Below, one piece after another: positions 21,055-29,518 of a DNA stretch of 64,000 nucleotides (position 1 is its first letter; each line of letters begins with the position of its first letter). A program made the position numbers and the translations under genes. This DNA comes from Micromonospora sp. WMMA1363 (GTDB lineage: Bacteria; Actinomycetota; Actinomycetes; Mycobacteriales; Micromonosporaceae). The stretch spans positions 1,793,001 to 1,857,000 of the forward strand of contig NZ_JAUALB010000001.1 in the NCBI RefSeq assembly GCF_030345795.1, read 5' to 3'. Under the pieces are notes generated by a model. The model worked only from the letters and a program-made list of their open reading frames with translations, was not told the DNA's origin and searched no databases.

Positions 21055-22717
21055 CAATGCCACGTAGCCTAGTTTGATCATGCTGCGTGGGGTTGAAGTC
21101 GGTAGATGTGGACGGTGGCTGAGCCCTGGTGGCGGATGCTGGCTGGCTCGTCGCGTTTCTTGACGCGGTAGCTGTTGTGGCGGGCGCGTTTGACGGCGCG
21201 GGGGCAGGTGCGTTCGCGTCGGGTGGGGATCAGGAGAGCGGCGATCTGGGCAAGGTGGGTCGGTAGTCGGTCAGTCCAGTCCTGAGGGGGGAATGTCCGC
21301 CGTCCCGGTGGCGGTGCGGCGGATCAGGCGCAGGGCCTTGGTGAAGGAGATCCGATCTGGATCGAGGTCAGCGGCGGCGGACGCTTTCGCGGTCAGTGCG
21401 CTGATCGCGTGGTGGACGATCAGGTAGGCCCAGATCTCCTGATGGGCCAGGTCCGGCAGGCGGGACCGCAGCACCCGTCCGGGACCACGGAGGTGGGTTT
21501 TGAGCTGGTCGTTGGCGGTTTCTTCCTCCCAGCGTTCGTGGTACGCGGCGGCCAGTTCGTCGGCGCGGGCGTCGGCGGGGTCGATGATTGTGGTGATCAG
21601 GGCGATCAGTTCGCCGGTGCCGTTACCGACGCGGTCGGGTACGTCGTACTCGACCACTCTGGCGAGGTGGACGACCGGCAGGCCCTGGTCGTCGAACGCG
21701 TCGGGAACAGTGTTGATGTCGGTCAGATCAGCCTCGCCGCGGGCGGCTGCGAGGAGCCGTTCCCGTCGACCGCCATGGACAGTCGGCTTGATCAGGACGG
21801 TGAGATAGGTGCCGTCGGACAGGACCTTGACCACGGGCAGGTCGAGCTGGTTCGGGGTCCGCCACAGCAACGCCGCGCCGGTGGCCTGGGCGGCATCCCA
21901 CGCCTGCCAGGAGTAGAACCCCCGGTCAGCGGTGAGCAGTTCGTCGGACCGCAGCCGCGGGTACAGGCGCTGCGCGAGGGTCTTCTCTCCCACGGCGTAG
22001 CCGCCGATCTCGGCGGCGACGAAGGCGTGGGTGCCGCACTCTGCGAGGGCCACTACCCGGGCCTTCGGGAACGCCGAACGGTTTTCCCCCGACCCGGCGT
22101 ACCCCAACTCGGCCGCGTTCTCGTCGCTGTCGGGCAGGTCGACCTCGAACCCGTCGATCGCCAGCAGCCGCCACCGGCGCAGGAAAGACCCCCGCGCGGT
22201 GCCCAGCGCGGCCACCTGCACGTGCGGGCCCGCCTCACCCGCGACCGGCCCGCACGTGCGCTCGAACACCTCGGCGAACACCTGGCGACCCAACCGTTTC
22301 CGCGCCTGAGTGATGGCGCTGGACGTCGGCACGCTCCACCCCGCACTCCAGCACCCGAACCGGTCCAACGACCCGGTGACCCTGCTCGCGACCTCGGTGT
22401 AGTCATCGTCGGGGAACAACGCCAGCCCCAACGTCAGATACGCGGTCACATGCGCCGGCAGTTTCCCGTCCGACCGCTTCTCCCGCACCCCGCACACCTC
22501 AACCGCCGCGTCGACCTCCTCCCGCGACACCTGCGAGATCAACACCCCGAGCGTGACCTGATCCGACCGCACCGCCGGACGATCCACCACATCCACCGAC
22601 ATGACCCGAGATCAAAACAGCCCGCCGAACCACGGCCACCCCGCCACGCCGCACCACCCGCGAGTCCACACAAAACCGCAGGCCACACCCAAGATCAACC
22701 TAGCCTACGTGGCATTG
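21055..22717 (-). mobile_element. IS4-family insertion sequence with 10-bp target duplication
   Basis: The 1663-bp element has imperfect terminal inverted repeats: the left end reads CAATGCCACGTAGCCTAG and the right end, reverse-complemented, CAATGCCACGTAGGCTAG. GGCCGAGGTG is duplicated directly outside both ends (21045-21054 and 22718-22727). One transposase gene fills it. The clean target duplication and intact transposase indicate a fairly recent insertion. Confidence 0.95.
21271..22602 (-). CDS. IS4 family transposase
   Basis: A 443-residue DDE transposase. The catalytic Asp residues are in LAIDGFEVDLPDS and LLTADRGFYSW. The IS4 signature Y-x2-R-x3-E-x6-K is complete in YHERWEEETANDQLK. 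An N-terminal helical domain (ITQARKRLGRQVFAEVF) precedes it. Full length for the family, no frameshift, so probably active. The start ATG lies 115 bp inside the right end of the element. Confidence 0.94.
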   Translation of the reverse strand: MSVDVVDRPAVRSDQVTLGVLISQVSREEVDAAVEVCGVREKRSDGKLPAHVTAYLTLGLALFPDDDYTEVASRVTGSLDRFGCWSAGWSVPTSSAITQARKRLGRQVFAEVFERTCGPVAGEAGPHVQVAALGTARGSFLRRWRLLAIDGFEVDLPDSDENAAELGYAGSGENRSAFPKARVVALAECGTHAFVAAEIGGYAVGEKTLAQRLYPRLRSDELLTADRGFYSWQAWDAAQATGAALLWRTPNQLDLPVVKVLSDGTYLTVLIKPTVHGGRRERLLAAARGEADLTDINTVPDAFDDQGLPVVHLARVVEYDVPDRVGNGTGELIALITTIIDPADARADELAAAYHERWEEETANDQLKTHLRGPGRVLRSRLPDLAHQEIWAYLIVHHAISALTAKASAAADLDPDRISFTKALRLIRRTATGTADIPPSGLD

Positions 22718-26740: not shown

Positions 26741-29518
26741 ATGTGTGGGATAGCTGGCTATATCGGCATCAGCGCCATCTGGGGTGAGCCGGTGCTTCGT
26801 CGCATGGCGGATGCTCAGGTGCACCGGGGTCCCGACGGAGACGGATATCTGGCCGAAGGGCTGATCGGTCTGGCGCACCGGCGGCTGGTGGTCATCGACC
26901 GGGCCCGCGGCCAGCAGCCGATGCGCTCAGCGGACGGCCGATACGCGATGGTCTACAACGGCGAGGTCTACAACTACCGGGAGCTGCGCGCGGAGTTGAC
27001 CGGTCTCGGCCATCGTTTCACCACCGCGAGTGACACCGAGGTCGTGCTCGCCGCATGGACCCAGTGGGGCCGGGCGGCGTTCGACCATTTCAACGGGATG
27101 TTCGCCCTGGCTATCGCCGATTTTGAACGCGGGGAGGTGGTATTGGCCCGCGATCAGTTCGGCATCAAGCCGCTATACCTCGCCGACGACGGGGACGGCA
27201 GGGTGTTCTTCGCCAGCGAGATTCGGCCGCTGCTGGCCAGCGACGCAATCCCACGAAAGCCGGACGACCTCACCATCTATCGATACCTACGGTTTCGGAC
27301 ACACGACGACACCACCCGCACCTTCTTTCACGGGATCAGCCGGTTGATGCCCGGCGAACTCGCGCTACTCTCACCGGACGGCCGAATTCAACGCTCGACC
27401 TACACCAACCTGTACGAGGACATGGACCGGCTCGCCGCGACGCCGAAGCCCTACGACCGGGCAGGCCGGCAGCGGTTCACCGCCGCGCTCAACAATGCGA
27501 TCAAGACACGGCTGGTCAGTGACGTTCCGGTGGGAACCGCGCTGTCGGGTGGCTTGGACTCCTCGACCCTGGTGGCTACCATCCAACGGCTCCTGGCCGC
27601 CGCCGACCGGGCCGCCCAGCCGGTGGGTGCGACCCAGCAGACGTTCTCGGCGGTCTTCCCCGGCGAGAGCAACAACGAGGAGGACTACGTCGACGCGGTC
27701 GTGGCCGGTTGCGACGCGCTGCAGGTCCACAAGGTGCGCCCTGATCCGGACCGGTTTCTGGTGGAGCTGCGTGACTTCGTGCGGACCCAGGAGGAGCCGG
27801 TCATCTCCACCGCCCCGTATGCACAGTACTGCGTGATGCGCGAGGCGAGCCGCCACGTCACCGTGATGCTGGACGGTCAGGGTGCGGACGAGATGCTTGC
27901 CGGCTACCTGCCGTACTACCTGGTGAACCTGCGCGGCCTCCAACCGGTCCGGGCCGCCGCGGAACTGTCGCGGTCCCTCGACGTGCTGTGGCGGCTGAGC
28001 CGGTTCCGGCTGGCCGACACCGTACGCCGCCGCCGACTGGCACCGGCCGACGCCCTGCTCGGCCGAGACTTTGCCACGGCCTACCGGCACGAGCGTTTCC
28101 CGACGGTGAACAACGACATCAAGGCGCGCCTGGCCGAGGACCTGTTCCGGCACAGCCTGCCGGCCCTGCTGCGTTACGAGGACCGGAACACCATGCGGTT
28201 CTCCATCGAAGGACGGGTGCCATTCCTGGACACCACCCTGCTGCGCACGGTGTGGTCGCTGGACACCTCAGCCATCATTCACCGCGGCTGGAACAAGCGG
28301 GCACTGCGGGACGCGACCACCGATCTGCTGCCCCGGCTGGTGCATCGTCGCCGCGACAAGATTGGTTTCACCACGCCCGAGGACAGCTGGTTCAGGCGGA
28401 TCAAGAACGACGTGTACCTAGTCTTCGCCTCGCAGTCGTTCGGCGCCCGACCCTACTTCGACCAGCCCGCCGTACTAAGGGCCTTCGAGGACTACGTAGC
28501 GGGCAGGGGCGGCGCGGAAAGCATGACGTTCTGGCGAATCCTCAACGTCGAACTGTGGCTGCGCGAATTCATCGACGCGCCACCGGCAGTCCGATCGGAT
28601 TCAGGCGATCGCGTCACGTCCCTCAGGGCAGCCCGCCCCCAGGACGACGATTCGCACGCGGATCTCCCGGGGCTACACCCGCAGGCGCCCCCGAAGCCGG
28701 ACTTCGTCCCCAACGCCCAGAAGGAACTGCTGCTAGCCGATGGCGCCTGGGCACGGTTTCCCCTTCGCACCGATCTCATCGCGACCGGCGACGACGTGCC
28801 GACGCTCGCCGCCACCCGGGTCGGGGAGTTCTTCAAGCAGGTACCCGAGATGCCACTCCCCGCCCAGCAACTGACGAACGCCGGACGCTGGTACCTGTTT
28901 GTCAGCGAGAAGGTGGTCGCGGTCGCCCAGGGACGGATCTTCAAGGTCGACGACATCCGCAGTGGGGTTTGGGCTCGACTCCTGTCCCGATTCGTCCGTC
29001 ATACTCCGTACGGCATCGGGCTGGGGCACCCGGCCACGATGCAACTGGCCATCCAGGAGGTCGGGCTGCCGCGAATCCTGATCGCCTCGGCAGTCGCCGC
29101 CGCTGGCAAGGCGGTGGGGCGACGCGGGCTGTTCTATCAGGTCACAGGCCCGGCGGTGCGGGCGATCGACGGGCCCACCGAGTACTCGGCCTACCCGGCG
29201 AACATCTCGGCGAAGCTGGCGCCGACCGATCCGGCCAGGGTTTCCCGGGAGACCACAGCGGCGATCCGGGCGGTCCTGCCCACAGAGATCGCAGAGCGGT
29301 TCGGCGGCACCGTGGTGATCGATGCCAACGACTTCGGGCAGGACGTCCTGGGCCACGACGCTGATCTGCCCGAAGCGGTGTTGGCCCGCGCGTTCGCCGA
29401 CAATCCCCTCGGCCAGGCGCGCGAGCAGACACCGTTCGCGGTCGTGGTCGACCAGGCATCCCGCGCTCCGGCGACATCGGATCGGTGCCGCTCCGGAACG
29501 CCGTCCAGGACTCGTTAG
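26741..29518 (+). CDS. Asparagine synthetase (glutamine-hydrolysing) fused to an F420-0:glutamate ligase-like domain
   Basis: A 925-residue two-part enzyme. Residues 1-~620 form a complete AsnB: N-terminal nucleophile Cys2 (MCGIAGYIG), glutaminase residues (HRRLVVID, VYNGEVYNYRELR), PP-loop SGGLDSSTLVA, and the synthetase tail RVPFLDTTLL...DKIGFTTPED. A variable linker follows. From about residue 670 the sequence fits the F420-0:gamma-glutamyl ligase (CofE) family: LFVSEKVVAVAQGRIF, GIGLGHPATMQLAIQEVGLPR and VVIDANDFGQDVLGHD. CofE adds glutamate to F420-0 through a gamma-glutamyl bond. AsnB normally amidates Asp; in biosynthetic clusters such enzymes amidate other acids. The fusion suggests sequential amide and gamma-glutamyl bond formation on one product. 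Confidence 0.85.
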   Translation: MCGIAGYIGISAIWGEPVLRRMADAQVHRGPDGDGYLAEGLIGLAHRRLVVIDRARGQQPMRSADGRYAMVYNGEVYNYRELRAELTGLGHRFTTASDTEVVLAAWTQWGRAAFDHFNGMFALAIADFERGEVVLARDQFGIKPLYLADDGDGRVFFASEIRPLLASDAIPRKPDDLTIYRYLRFRTHDDTTRTFFHGISRLMPGELALLSPDGRIQRSTYTNLYEDMDRLAATPKPYDRAGRQRFTAALNNAIKTRLVSDVPVGTALSGGLDSSTLVATIQRLLAAADRAAQPVGATQQTFSAVFPGESNNEEDYVDAVVAGCDALQVHKVRPDPDRFLVELRDFVRTQEEPVISTAPYAQYCVMREASRHVTVMLDGQGADEMLAGYLPYYLVNLRGLQPVRAAAELSRSLDVLWRLSRFRLADTVRRRRLAPADALLGRDFATAYRHERFPTVNNDIKARLAEDLFRHSLPALLRYEDRNTMRFSIEGRVPFLDTTLLRTVWSLDTSAIIHRGWNKRALRDATTDLLPRLVHRRRDKIGFTTPEDSWFRRIKNDVYLVFASQSFGARPYFDQPAVLRAFEDYVAGRGGAESMTFWRILNVELWLREFIDAPPAVRSDSGDRVTSLRAARPQDDDSHADLPGLHPQAPPKPDFVPNAQKELLLADGAWARFPLRTDLIATGDDVPTLAATRVGEFFKQVPEMPLPAQQLTNAGRWYLFVSEKVVAVAQGRIFKVDDIRSGVWARLLSRFVRHTPYGIGLGHPATMQLAIQEVGLPRILIASAVAAAGKAVGRRGLFYQVTGPAVRAIDGPTEYSAYPANISAKLAPTDPARVSRETTAAIRAVLPTEIAERFGGTVVIDANDFGQDVLGHDADLPEAVLARAFADNPLGQAREQTPFAVVVDQASRAPATSDRCRSGTPSRTR

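Follow-up and report, generated by a model that had tools for sequence, protein, structure and literature searches.

An asparagine synthetase fused to a CofE-like domain in Micromonospora: architecture, distribution and a candidate reaction

The fusion gene and its domains

The DNA considered here (the window) is a stretch of 64,000 nucleotides from Micromonospora sp. WMMA1363 (contig NZ_JAUALB010000001.1, positions 1,793,001 to 1,857,000). At 26741..29518 on the plus strand, to which all coordinates within the gene refer, lies an open reading frame that starts with ATG, has no internal stops and encodes a protein of 925 amino acids (P0001) in which an asparagine synthetase of the AsnB type is followed by a domain related to CofE, the F420-0:glutamate ligase. 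This fusion had been proposed in a first-pass annotation of the window; its coordinates and frame were right, and homologues with the same architecture were found in independent genomes.

The N-terminal part begins with a class II glutaminase domain (GATase_7, PF13537; residues 1-166, 26741..27238) with Cys2 as its nucleophile, the Pfam scan giving 154.1 bits over residues 46-166. It is followed by an ATP (adenosine triphosphate)-binding, amidating asparagine synthase domain (PF00733; residues 247-608, 27479..28564; 215.9 bits in the same scan) that contains the SGGLDSS loop at 27545-27565. The catalytic signatures of AsnB are present, with MCGI at residue 1 and the PP-loop SGGLDS at residue 269, and the protein scores 396.1 bits against the NCBIfam asparagine synthase model TIGR01536, above the curated equivalog cut-off of 267.1. 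Judged from these signatures the AsnB part (residues 1-612) is intact, and the earlier claim of a complete AsnB at the N-terminus is thereby borne out. It shares with E. coli AsnB (1ct9) both domains, the nucleophile Cys2, the SGGLDSS loop and a score over the cut-off, but is longer than it by a C-terminal extension of some 300 residues. Among solved chains, the one that scored best by sequence was the hydroxyamidotransferase 7ylz, ahead of E. coli AsnB. Across the fusions Cys2, Asn73 and Asp98 of the glutaminase domain are conserved or nearly so. Eight fusions, mostly from Intrasporangiaceae (L020, L022, L025, L028, L030, L033, L035 and L038), have Asp in place of Asn73, a substitution that may weaken glutamine hydrolysis.

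The remainder of the protein comprises a linker (residues 613-665, 28577..28735), poorly conserved by both identity and substitution rates, and a CofE-like, PF01996-related domain that is the putative amide ligase (residues 666-905, 28736..29455), after which the final 20 residues show no conservation. A CofE-type domain had been placed at residues 650-910; such a domain is present there, although its bounds are closer to about 666 and about 905. Its relationship to PF01996 is clearer in the family than in the window. The window protein scores 18.6 bits as a whole and 23.2 bits for the domain piece alone and so does not reach the Pfam gathering cut-off of 25, but in alignment A1, which consists of the window domain and 25 relatives, every one of the 26 members has a PF01996 match at E <= 0.01 (the best at 7.9e-13), and PF01996 is among the precomputed assignments of several relatives. 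The expected kinship to this family holds for the relatives, the window's own match staying below the cut-off, so that the first refutation named in the first-pass annotation, a lack of hits to the F420 ligase family, did not come about. The cofE model TIGR01916 was matched at E <= 0.01 by nine of the 26 members (best 4.6e-7), and for the window domain itself no NCBIfam model, the TIGR01916 equivalog included, gave a match at that threshold. Comparison by hhalign with eleven canonical actinobacterial FbiB/CofE domains gave E 0.0015 with a probability of 16.6 over 115 columns, and a profile search of PDB sequences with the ligase domain returned CofE chains only, at E about 1.2. On this sequence evidence the domain is homologous to PF01996 and forms a divergent subfamily related to it.

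Several short motifs connect the domain with CofE and the N-terminal domain of FbiB (TIGR01916, 2phn, 7uld). The motif EKVVAVAQGR (residues 723-732, 28907..28936) is by alignment the counterpart of CofE SKIVSKAEGR (SEKVVA..QGR against TSKIVSKAEGR in its wider context), and E723, Q730 and R732 are invariant in 78 sequences. LAPxDP corresponds to LLPxDPD of CofE. The CofE-type motif quoted in the first-pass annotation, VVIDANDFGQDVLGHD, is present and starts at residue 858 (residues 858-873, 29312..29359); it contains Asp861, invariant in the 78 sequences, which was aligned with Asp150 of CofE from A. fulgidus (2g9i 119-152) in a stretch of 5.4 bits that is not significant alone. A further possible metal-site motif, Asp810-Gly-Pro812 (29168..29176), is likewise invariant in the 78 sequences. 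Asp109 and Asp150 are metal ligands in CofE, and Asp810 is presumably the equivalent of Asp109.

Distribution of the fusion and fate of its two halves

In a search of fusion-length proteins with residues 630-925, 575 of 8000 scored candidates matched at E <= 1e-3. Among the matches listed, 108 of 120 (the window protein included) carry a precomputed Asn_synthase domain; they come from Salinispora, Stackebrandtia, Actinomadura, Intrasporangiaceae, Fodinicola, Saccharibacteria and many unnamed organisms. A scan of genome contigs for the domain gave at least 573 confirmed stretches out of 593, and the loci followed up from it were the best 80 of these at least 573 stretches. The same domain order is seen in Salinispora, Stackebrandtia, Intrasporangiaceae, Dermabacteraceae, Actinomycetaceae and several Patescibacteria, with AsnB first and the ligase second in every locus, actinobacterial or patescibacterial, that shows both motifs. 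Because the fusion is found in independent genomes it is neither a chance join nor an assembly chimera, and these explanations, the second of which had been named at the outset as a possible refutation, were ruled out; the genome survey showed the architecture to be widely conserved. The domain is present in nine of 151 genomes of the window's genus, in 46 of 250 genomes of its family (degenerate copies counted) and in 25 of 396 genomes of its phylum. A search of plasmids for the ligase domain gave no match. In the open-licence literature naming both enzymes no description of an AsnB/CofE-like fusion was found, though one may exist elsewhere.

A genus from a different actinobacterial family has AsnB and the ligase as separate neighbouring genes, which overlap by 4 nt in two loci (L185 and L189) and by 1 nt in a third (L190) and abut in a fourth (L136). 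Both of the split proteins group with fused forms (L151-L153) in the trees, which, like all trees referred to here, are quick trees. Copies from Saccharibacteria, Nomurabacteria and other Patescibacteria (L065, L067, L016, L027, L018 and L061) cluster in these trees with actinobacterial ones, their partners being Dermabacteraceae and Coriobacteriales metagenome-assembled genomes (MAGs). This clustering suggests transfer between Patescibacteria and Actinobacteria, perhaps twice.

Both halves are under purifying selection, and the linker under weaker selection, when the window gene is compared with three Salinispora copies. The ratio of nonsynonymous to synonymous substitution rates (dN/dS) was 0.17-0.18 for AsnB, 0.16-0.27 for the ligase-like domain and 0.48-0.75 for the linker, and identity was 78-82% in the flanking domains against 36-44% in the linker. 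Against the more distant Stackebrandtia copy all three parts were alike (0.38-0.42).

The state of each half was scored at 11 chosen catalytic positions of AsnB and at 21 positions of the ligase, the latter selected for conservation within the family. For this purpose 132 rows were aligned, four loci (L001, L089, L100 and L197) having been excluded earlier as duplicates, and nine were dropped before counting: L183, which is from the genome of L024, and L090-L097, which are short stretches without an AsnB start. The 123 kept comprise 66 full-length fusions, eight loci with a degraded AsnB, 13 Micromonosporaceae loci with both halves decayed, 33 standalone ligases and three loci cut by contig ends (L068, L070 and L073); the division of the 21 AsnB-degraded loci into groups of eight and 13 was made post hoc, after the first position scores. 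Outside the degraded sets, the 11 AsnB positions are all unchanged in 51 of the 66 fusions, with a single difference in 13 and two differences in two, and all 21 ligase positions are kept in 64. In the group of eight, AsnB is changed at 5-10 of the 11 positions and the ligase keeps 21 of 21. The hosts of these eight loci are Fodinicola, Microlunatus, a Brachybacterium, a Mycobacteriales MAG, Geodermatophilus, an actinobacterial MAG, a Helcobacillus-labelled assembly and Dermabacter. Mapping of this state onto the domain tree, with seven of the eight loci (L077 being omitted as a near-copy), required six changes, of which at least four are forced by starred branches. The ligase half is thus the more constant half. 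The first-pass annotation had suggested that a single molecule could be amidated at one of its carboxyls and glutamylated at another; this pairing is not required, because in the eight loci AsnB is degraded and the ligase is apparently intact.

In many organisms the fusion is probably the asparagine synthetase. In ten of 14 genomes reached through the loci of relatives the fusion-length protein is the sole AsnB above cut-off, and two have a second AsnB; the remaining two have a standalone ligase, one (G750) with no AsnB above cut-off and the other (G752) with an unfused AsnB. A second set comprised 22 genomes, 13 of them with an intact fusion; in 12 of these 13 no further AsnB rises above cut-off, and one of the 12 (G951) carries another fusion-length copy that falls slightly under it. 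Since the fusion is so often the only AsnB above cut-off, ordinary asparagine synthesis is suggested as the role of its first half. In the genomes of the eight AsnB-degraded loci another AsnB is present in five. The three with no AsnB above cut-off (G933, G937 and G938; loci L034, L075 and L077) are the Brachybacterium, the Helcobacillus-labelled assembly and Dermabacter hominis, and these may need external asparagine or amidation dependent on transfer RNA.

These data bear on the reading in which the protein is a plain asparagine synthetase with a CofE-like appendage of regulatory or structural, non-catalytic function. The scarcity of other AsnB genes in the two genome sets (10 of 14 and 12 of 13 genomes have none over the cut-off) is consistent with it, as is the joint decay of the halves in one Micromonosporaceae clade. 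The reading is weakened, however, by the eight loci in which all 21 ligase residues survive beside a degraded AsnB, since one would not expect an accessory part to survive the loss of the enzyme that it serves. The domain also occurs alone, in several Patescibacteria and in Actinopolymorpha, where a ligase without the AsnB half is placed among actinobacterial fusions in the tree; in three Patescibacteria with the ligase alone (L050, L079 and L084) HtpX lies directly upstream and gatC downstream. We regard a non-catalytic appendage as improbable.

A candidate reaction and its acceptor

The substrate of CofE itself was considered first among acceptors for the ligase domain. The window's own genome encodes a separate canonical CofE/FbiB elsewhere, and because of this it probably makes F420. 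Among 20 other genomes that carry the ligase domain, mostly draft MAGs, none has CofD above cut-off; weak CofD matches were seen in 14 of the 20, and matches of a similar kind were seen in the E. coli control. F420-0 is for this reason an unlikely substrate in the relatives. The domain also departs from CofE in sequence: the window has ANDFGQ at the place of DTMGRPWR in actinobacterial CofE, and there are differences in the C-terminal part. The isoalloxazine is held in CofE by G153-C155 and R234 (PMC10861534). Synthesis of the F420 tail was rejected as the role of the domain on two grounds, the canonical CofE in the window's own genome and the lack of CofD above cut-off in all 20 others, and the acceptor is probably not F420-0.

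We propose, with a confidence that we would put at about even, that the protein is a two-headed enzyme in which a working asparagine synthetase is joined to a nucleoside triphosphate (NTP)-dependent amino-acid:carboxylate ligase with an acceptor that is probably not F420-0, the first head supplying the second. In the AsnB head Cys2 would free ammonia from glutamine, the second domain would adenylate aspartate, and the ammonia would displace adenosine monophosphate, so that asparagine is formed and glutamate is left over as the by-product. In the CofE-like head, modelled on CofE chemistry (PMC10861534), NTP and two divalent metals would convert a carboxylate into an activated acyl phosphate, and an amino acid, most likely glutamate and possibly asparagine, would attack this intermediate with its amino group to form an amide. 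With the heads joined, the first would supply glutamate or asparagine to the second, and such a supply would explain the fusion as well as the loss of AsnB where the amino acid is available otherwise. In favour of the proposal stand the AsnB and ligase residues kept in most fusions, the constant domain order, the gene pair in one genus, the purifying selection on both heads, the lack of CofD above cut-off in the 20 genomes, and the eight loci in which the ligase residues survive beside a degraded AsnB. For the ligase head we infer the catalysis, its co-substrates and the supply relationship.

Several observations weigh against this proposal. The link to canonical CofE is weak, as seen in the low hhalign probability, the sub-threshold PF01996 score of the window and the low score of the stretch that aligns Asp861 with Asp150, and in the CofE motif SKAEGR the second Lys and the Glu are substituted in the ligase domain. 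We know of no activity for this ligase subfamily. The 13 Micromonosporaceae loci form one clade (ten of them in the tree, support 100) in which the ligase is changed at 9-14 of 21 positions and AsnB, in the 12 that still match it, at 8-10 of 11; because both halves have decayed there, the ligase does not always outlive AsnB. Among the standalone relatives five of 33 keep all 21 positions and the others differ at 1-12, and because of these 28 the distant standalone ligases may do something else. Finally, the loss of the AsnB head in Dermabacter, which has no AsnB above cut-off, is hard to explain if a supply of asparagine or glutamate is essential, unless it is obtained elsewhere.

A second acceptor that has precedent in the family is folate. 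In this alternative the ligase head would be a substitute folylpolyglutamate synthase like CT611 (FolC2) of Chlamydia, a member of the COG1478 family; CT611 is described as a CofE homologue with FolC activity, reported to complement, and apparently uses an acceptor other than F420 (PMC1971073), in which it resembles the proposal made here. The model of a putative folate gamma-glutamate ligase, TIGR04132, is matched weakly by two of the 26 members of A1 (best E 0.0037), the window not among them. To our knowledge CT611 is not fused to AsnB. Six patescibacterial genomes (G743, G744, G747, G748, G751 and G753) have dihydrofolate reductase (DHFR) without FolC above cut-off, which favours this alternative, but FolC above cut-off stands alongside the ligase domain in six of 14 genomes, two genomes with the domain (G749 and G754) have neither FolC nor DHFR above cut-off, and no folate gene was recognised beside the fusion gene. 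The FolC and DHFR absences are soft, because the genomes are mostly draft MAGs. A folate acceptor seems to us rather unlikely.

There is a broader possibility that we put forward tentatively and hold somewhat less firmly: that the CofE fold has here a third acceptor chemistry, in a conserved F420- and folate-independent amino-acid ligase physically coupled to AsnB, which would build a new amidated or glutamylated metabolite or cell-wall precursor, and which would be shared and exchanged horizontally between actinobacteria and patescibacteria. An amide-forming reaction is probably missing from the described metabolism of both groups. PF01996 carries an F420-enzyme annotation, and a large branch of it is tied to AsnB and occurs in genomes without a sign of F420 synthesis; for this reason the annotation is probably misleading for that branch. 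Taken together, the fused protein, the pair of separate genes and the forms that lack AsnB offer an experimental handle, in the form of two separable heads and of natural variants with one apparently dead head.

Genomic surroundings

Upstream of the fusion gene in the window, across a gap of 371 nt, lie genes for an aldo/keto reductase and a class I/II aminotransferase. For the neighbour comparisons gene clusters were counted, with the identity of each cluster taken from one representative, and genes were called by a custom script that over- and under-calls in DNA of high GC content (guanine plus cytosine); some neighbour names (YggT, ProC, SepF, DapL and similar) were assigned by eye, as was most of the broader survey. 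Roizmanbacteria and allied records have gatC on the downstream side in 14 loci, in eight of them directly next to the gene, as well as gatB downstream in ten, dnaE downstream in 12, and LemA and HtpX upstream in 12. In Intrasporangiaceae SURF1 is found upstream in 11 loci and guaA in 12. Such surroundings are unlike those expected of a natural-product cluster, the neighbours that can be named being housekeeping genes.

The first-pass annotation had pointed to natural-product clusters, and in such a setting a tailoring enzyme would amidate and glutamylate one specialised metabolite. The sporadic occurrence in the genus (nine of 151 genomes) and the two upstream genes of the window would suit such a role. 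Neither the aldo/keto reductase nor the aminotransferase, however, clustered with any gene of the Salinispora loci within 10 kb on each side, the fusion is present in small patescibacterial genomes, and it is often the only AsnB above cut-off, so that this setting is unsupported. As the nameable neighbours elsewhere are unrelated housekeeping genes, the cluster was set aside as the principal reading, and we think a tailoring role very improbable.

A different set of neighbours recalls the cell envelope. A cell-envelope enzyme would modify a peptidoglycan precursor, with a ligase head that attaches an amino acid at a carboxyl of the stem peptide and an AsnB head that amidates a carboxyl in the manner of LtsA/AsnB. 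In other bacteria AsnB homologues amidate meso-diaminopimelate, and the passages on this enzyme, LtsA, describe an amidotransferase of the AsnB superfamily in which Asp-binding residues are lost and an extra loop is present, with no mention there of a ligase domain, unlike the fusion (PMC8554201). A MurT-GatD gene is the neighbour of a standalone ligase in two genomes belonging to one genus (L141 by Pfam, L181 by similarity to L141), the split AsnB and ligase genes adjoin DivIVA in six genomes of one genus (L136, L185 and L187-L190) with ftsA, ftsZ and SepF-like genes farther on, a Coriobacteriales genome (L024) has dapF two genes downstream of its fusion, and MurJ adjoins the ligase in L146, L150 and L192 and is two genes off in L147. 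Counts over all loci did not demonstrate enrichment: 20 cell-wall and division queries matched 14 of 472 genes within two genes of the locus against 19 of 1202 farther away, six of the queries (MurT-GatD, MurJ, DivIVA, Alr, SepF and dapF) had been picked once genes of that kind had been noticed close by, and fourteen genes of the E. coli dcw (division and cell wall) cluster taken alone gave no near and 11 farther matches. Moreover, MurT-GatD was not seen beside the ligase in L180 and L182, which are from the same genus as L141 and L181, and the ligases beside MurT-GatD or MurJ have 5-9 of the 21 conserved positions changed. A cell-wall link is therefore not claimed, and a cell-envelope role for the two-headed enzyme is in our estimate unlikely.

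Some further observations concern these loci. In L141 and L181 MurT and GatD appear to form one polypeptide encoded directly upstream of the standalone CofE-like gene (L141:6323-8548, 741 aa; L181:5496-7796, 766 aa). The Micromonosporaceae protein with both halves decayed (L125-L135, L195 and L196) is about 630-780 aa long and is adjoined by a DUF255/YyaL-like gene in 12 of 13 loci; it is retained in many genomes yet looks catalytically dead. CofE-like domains have other partners too, namely a peroxiredoxin in a Saccharimonadales MAG protein (P0141) and tetratricopeptide repeats in the actinobacterial loci L147, L148 and L149. In the window, upstream of the region described here, an IS4-family transposase gene lies at 21271-22602 on the minus strand (NF033592, 168.3 bits against a cut-off of 115).

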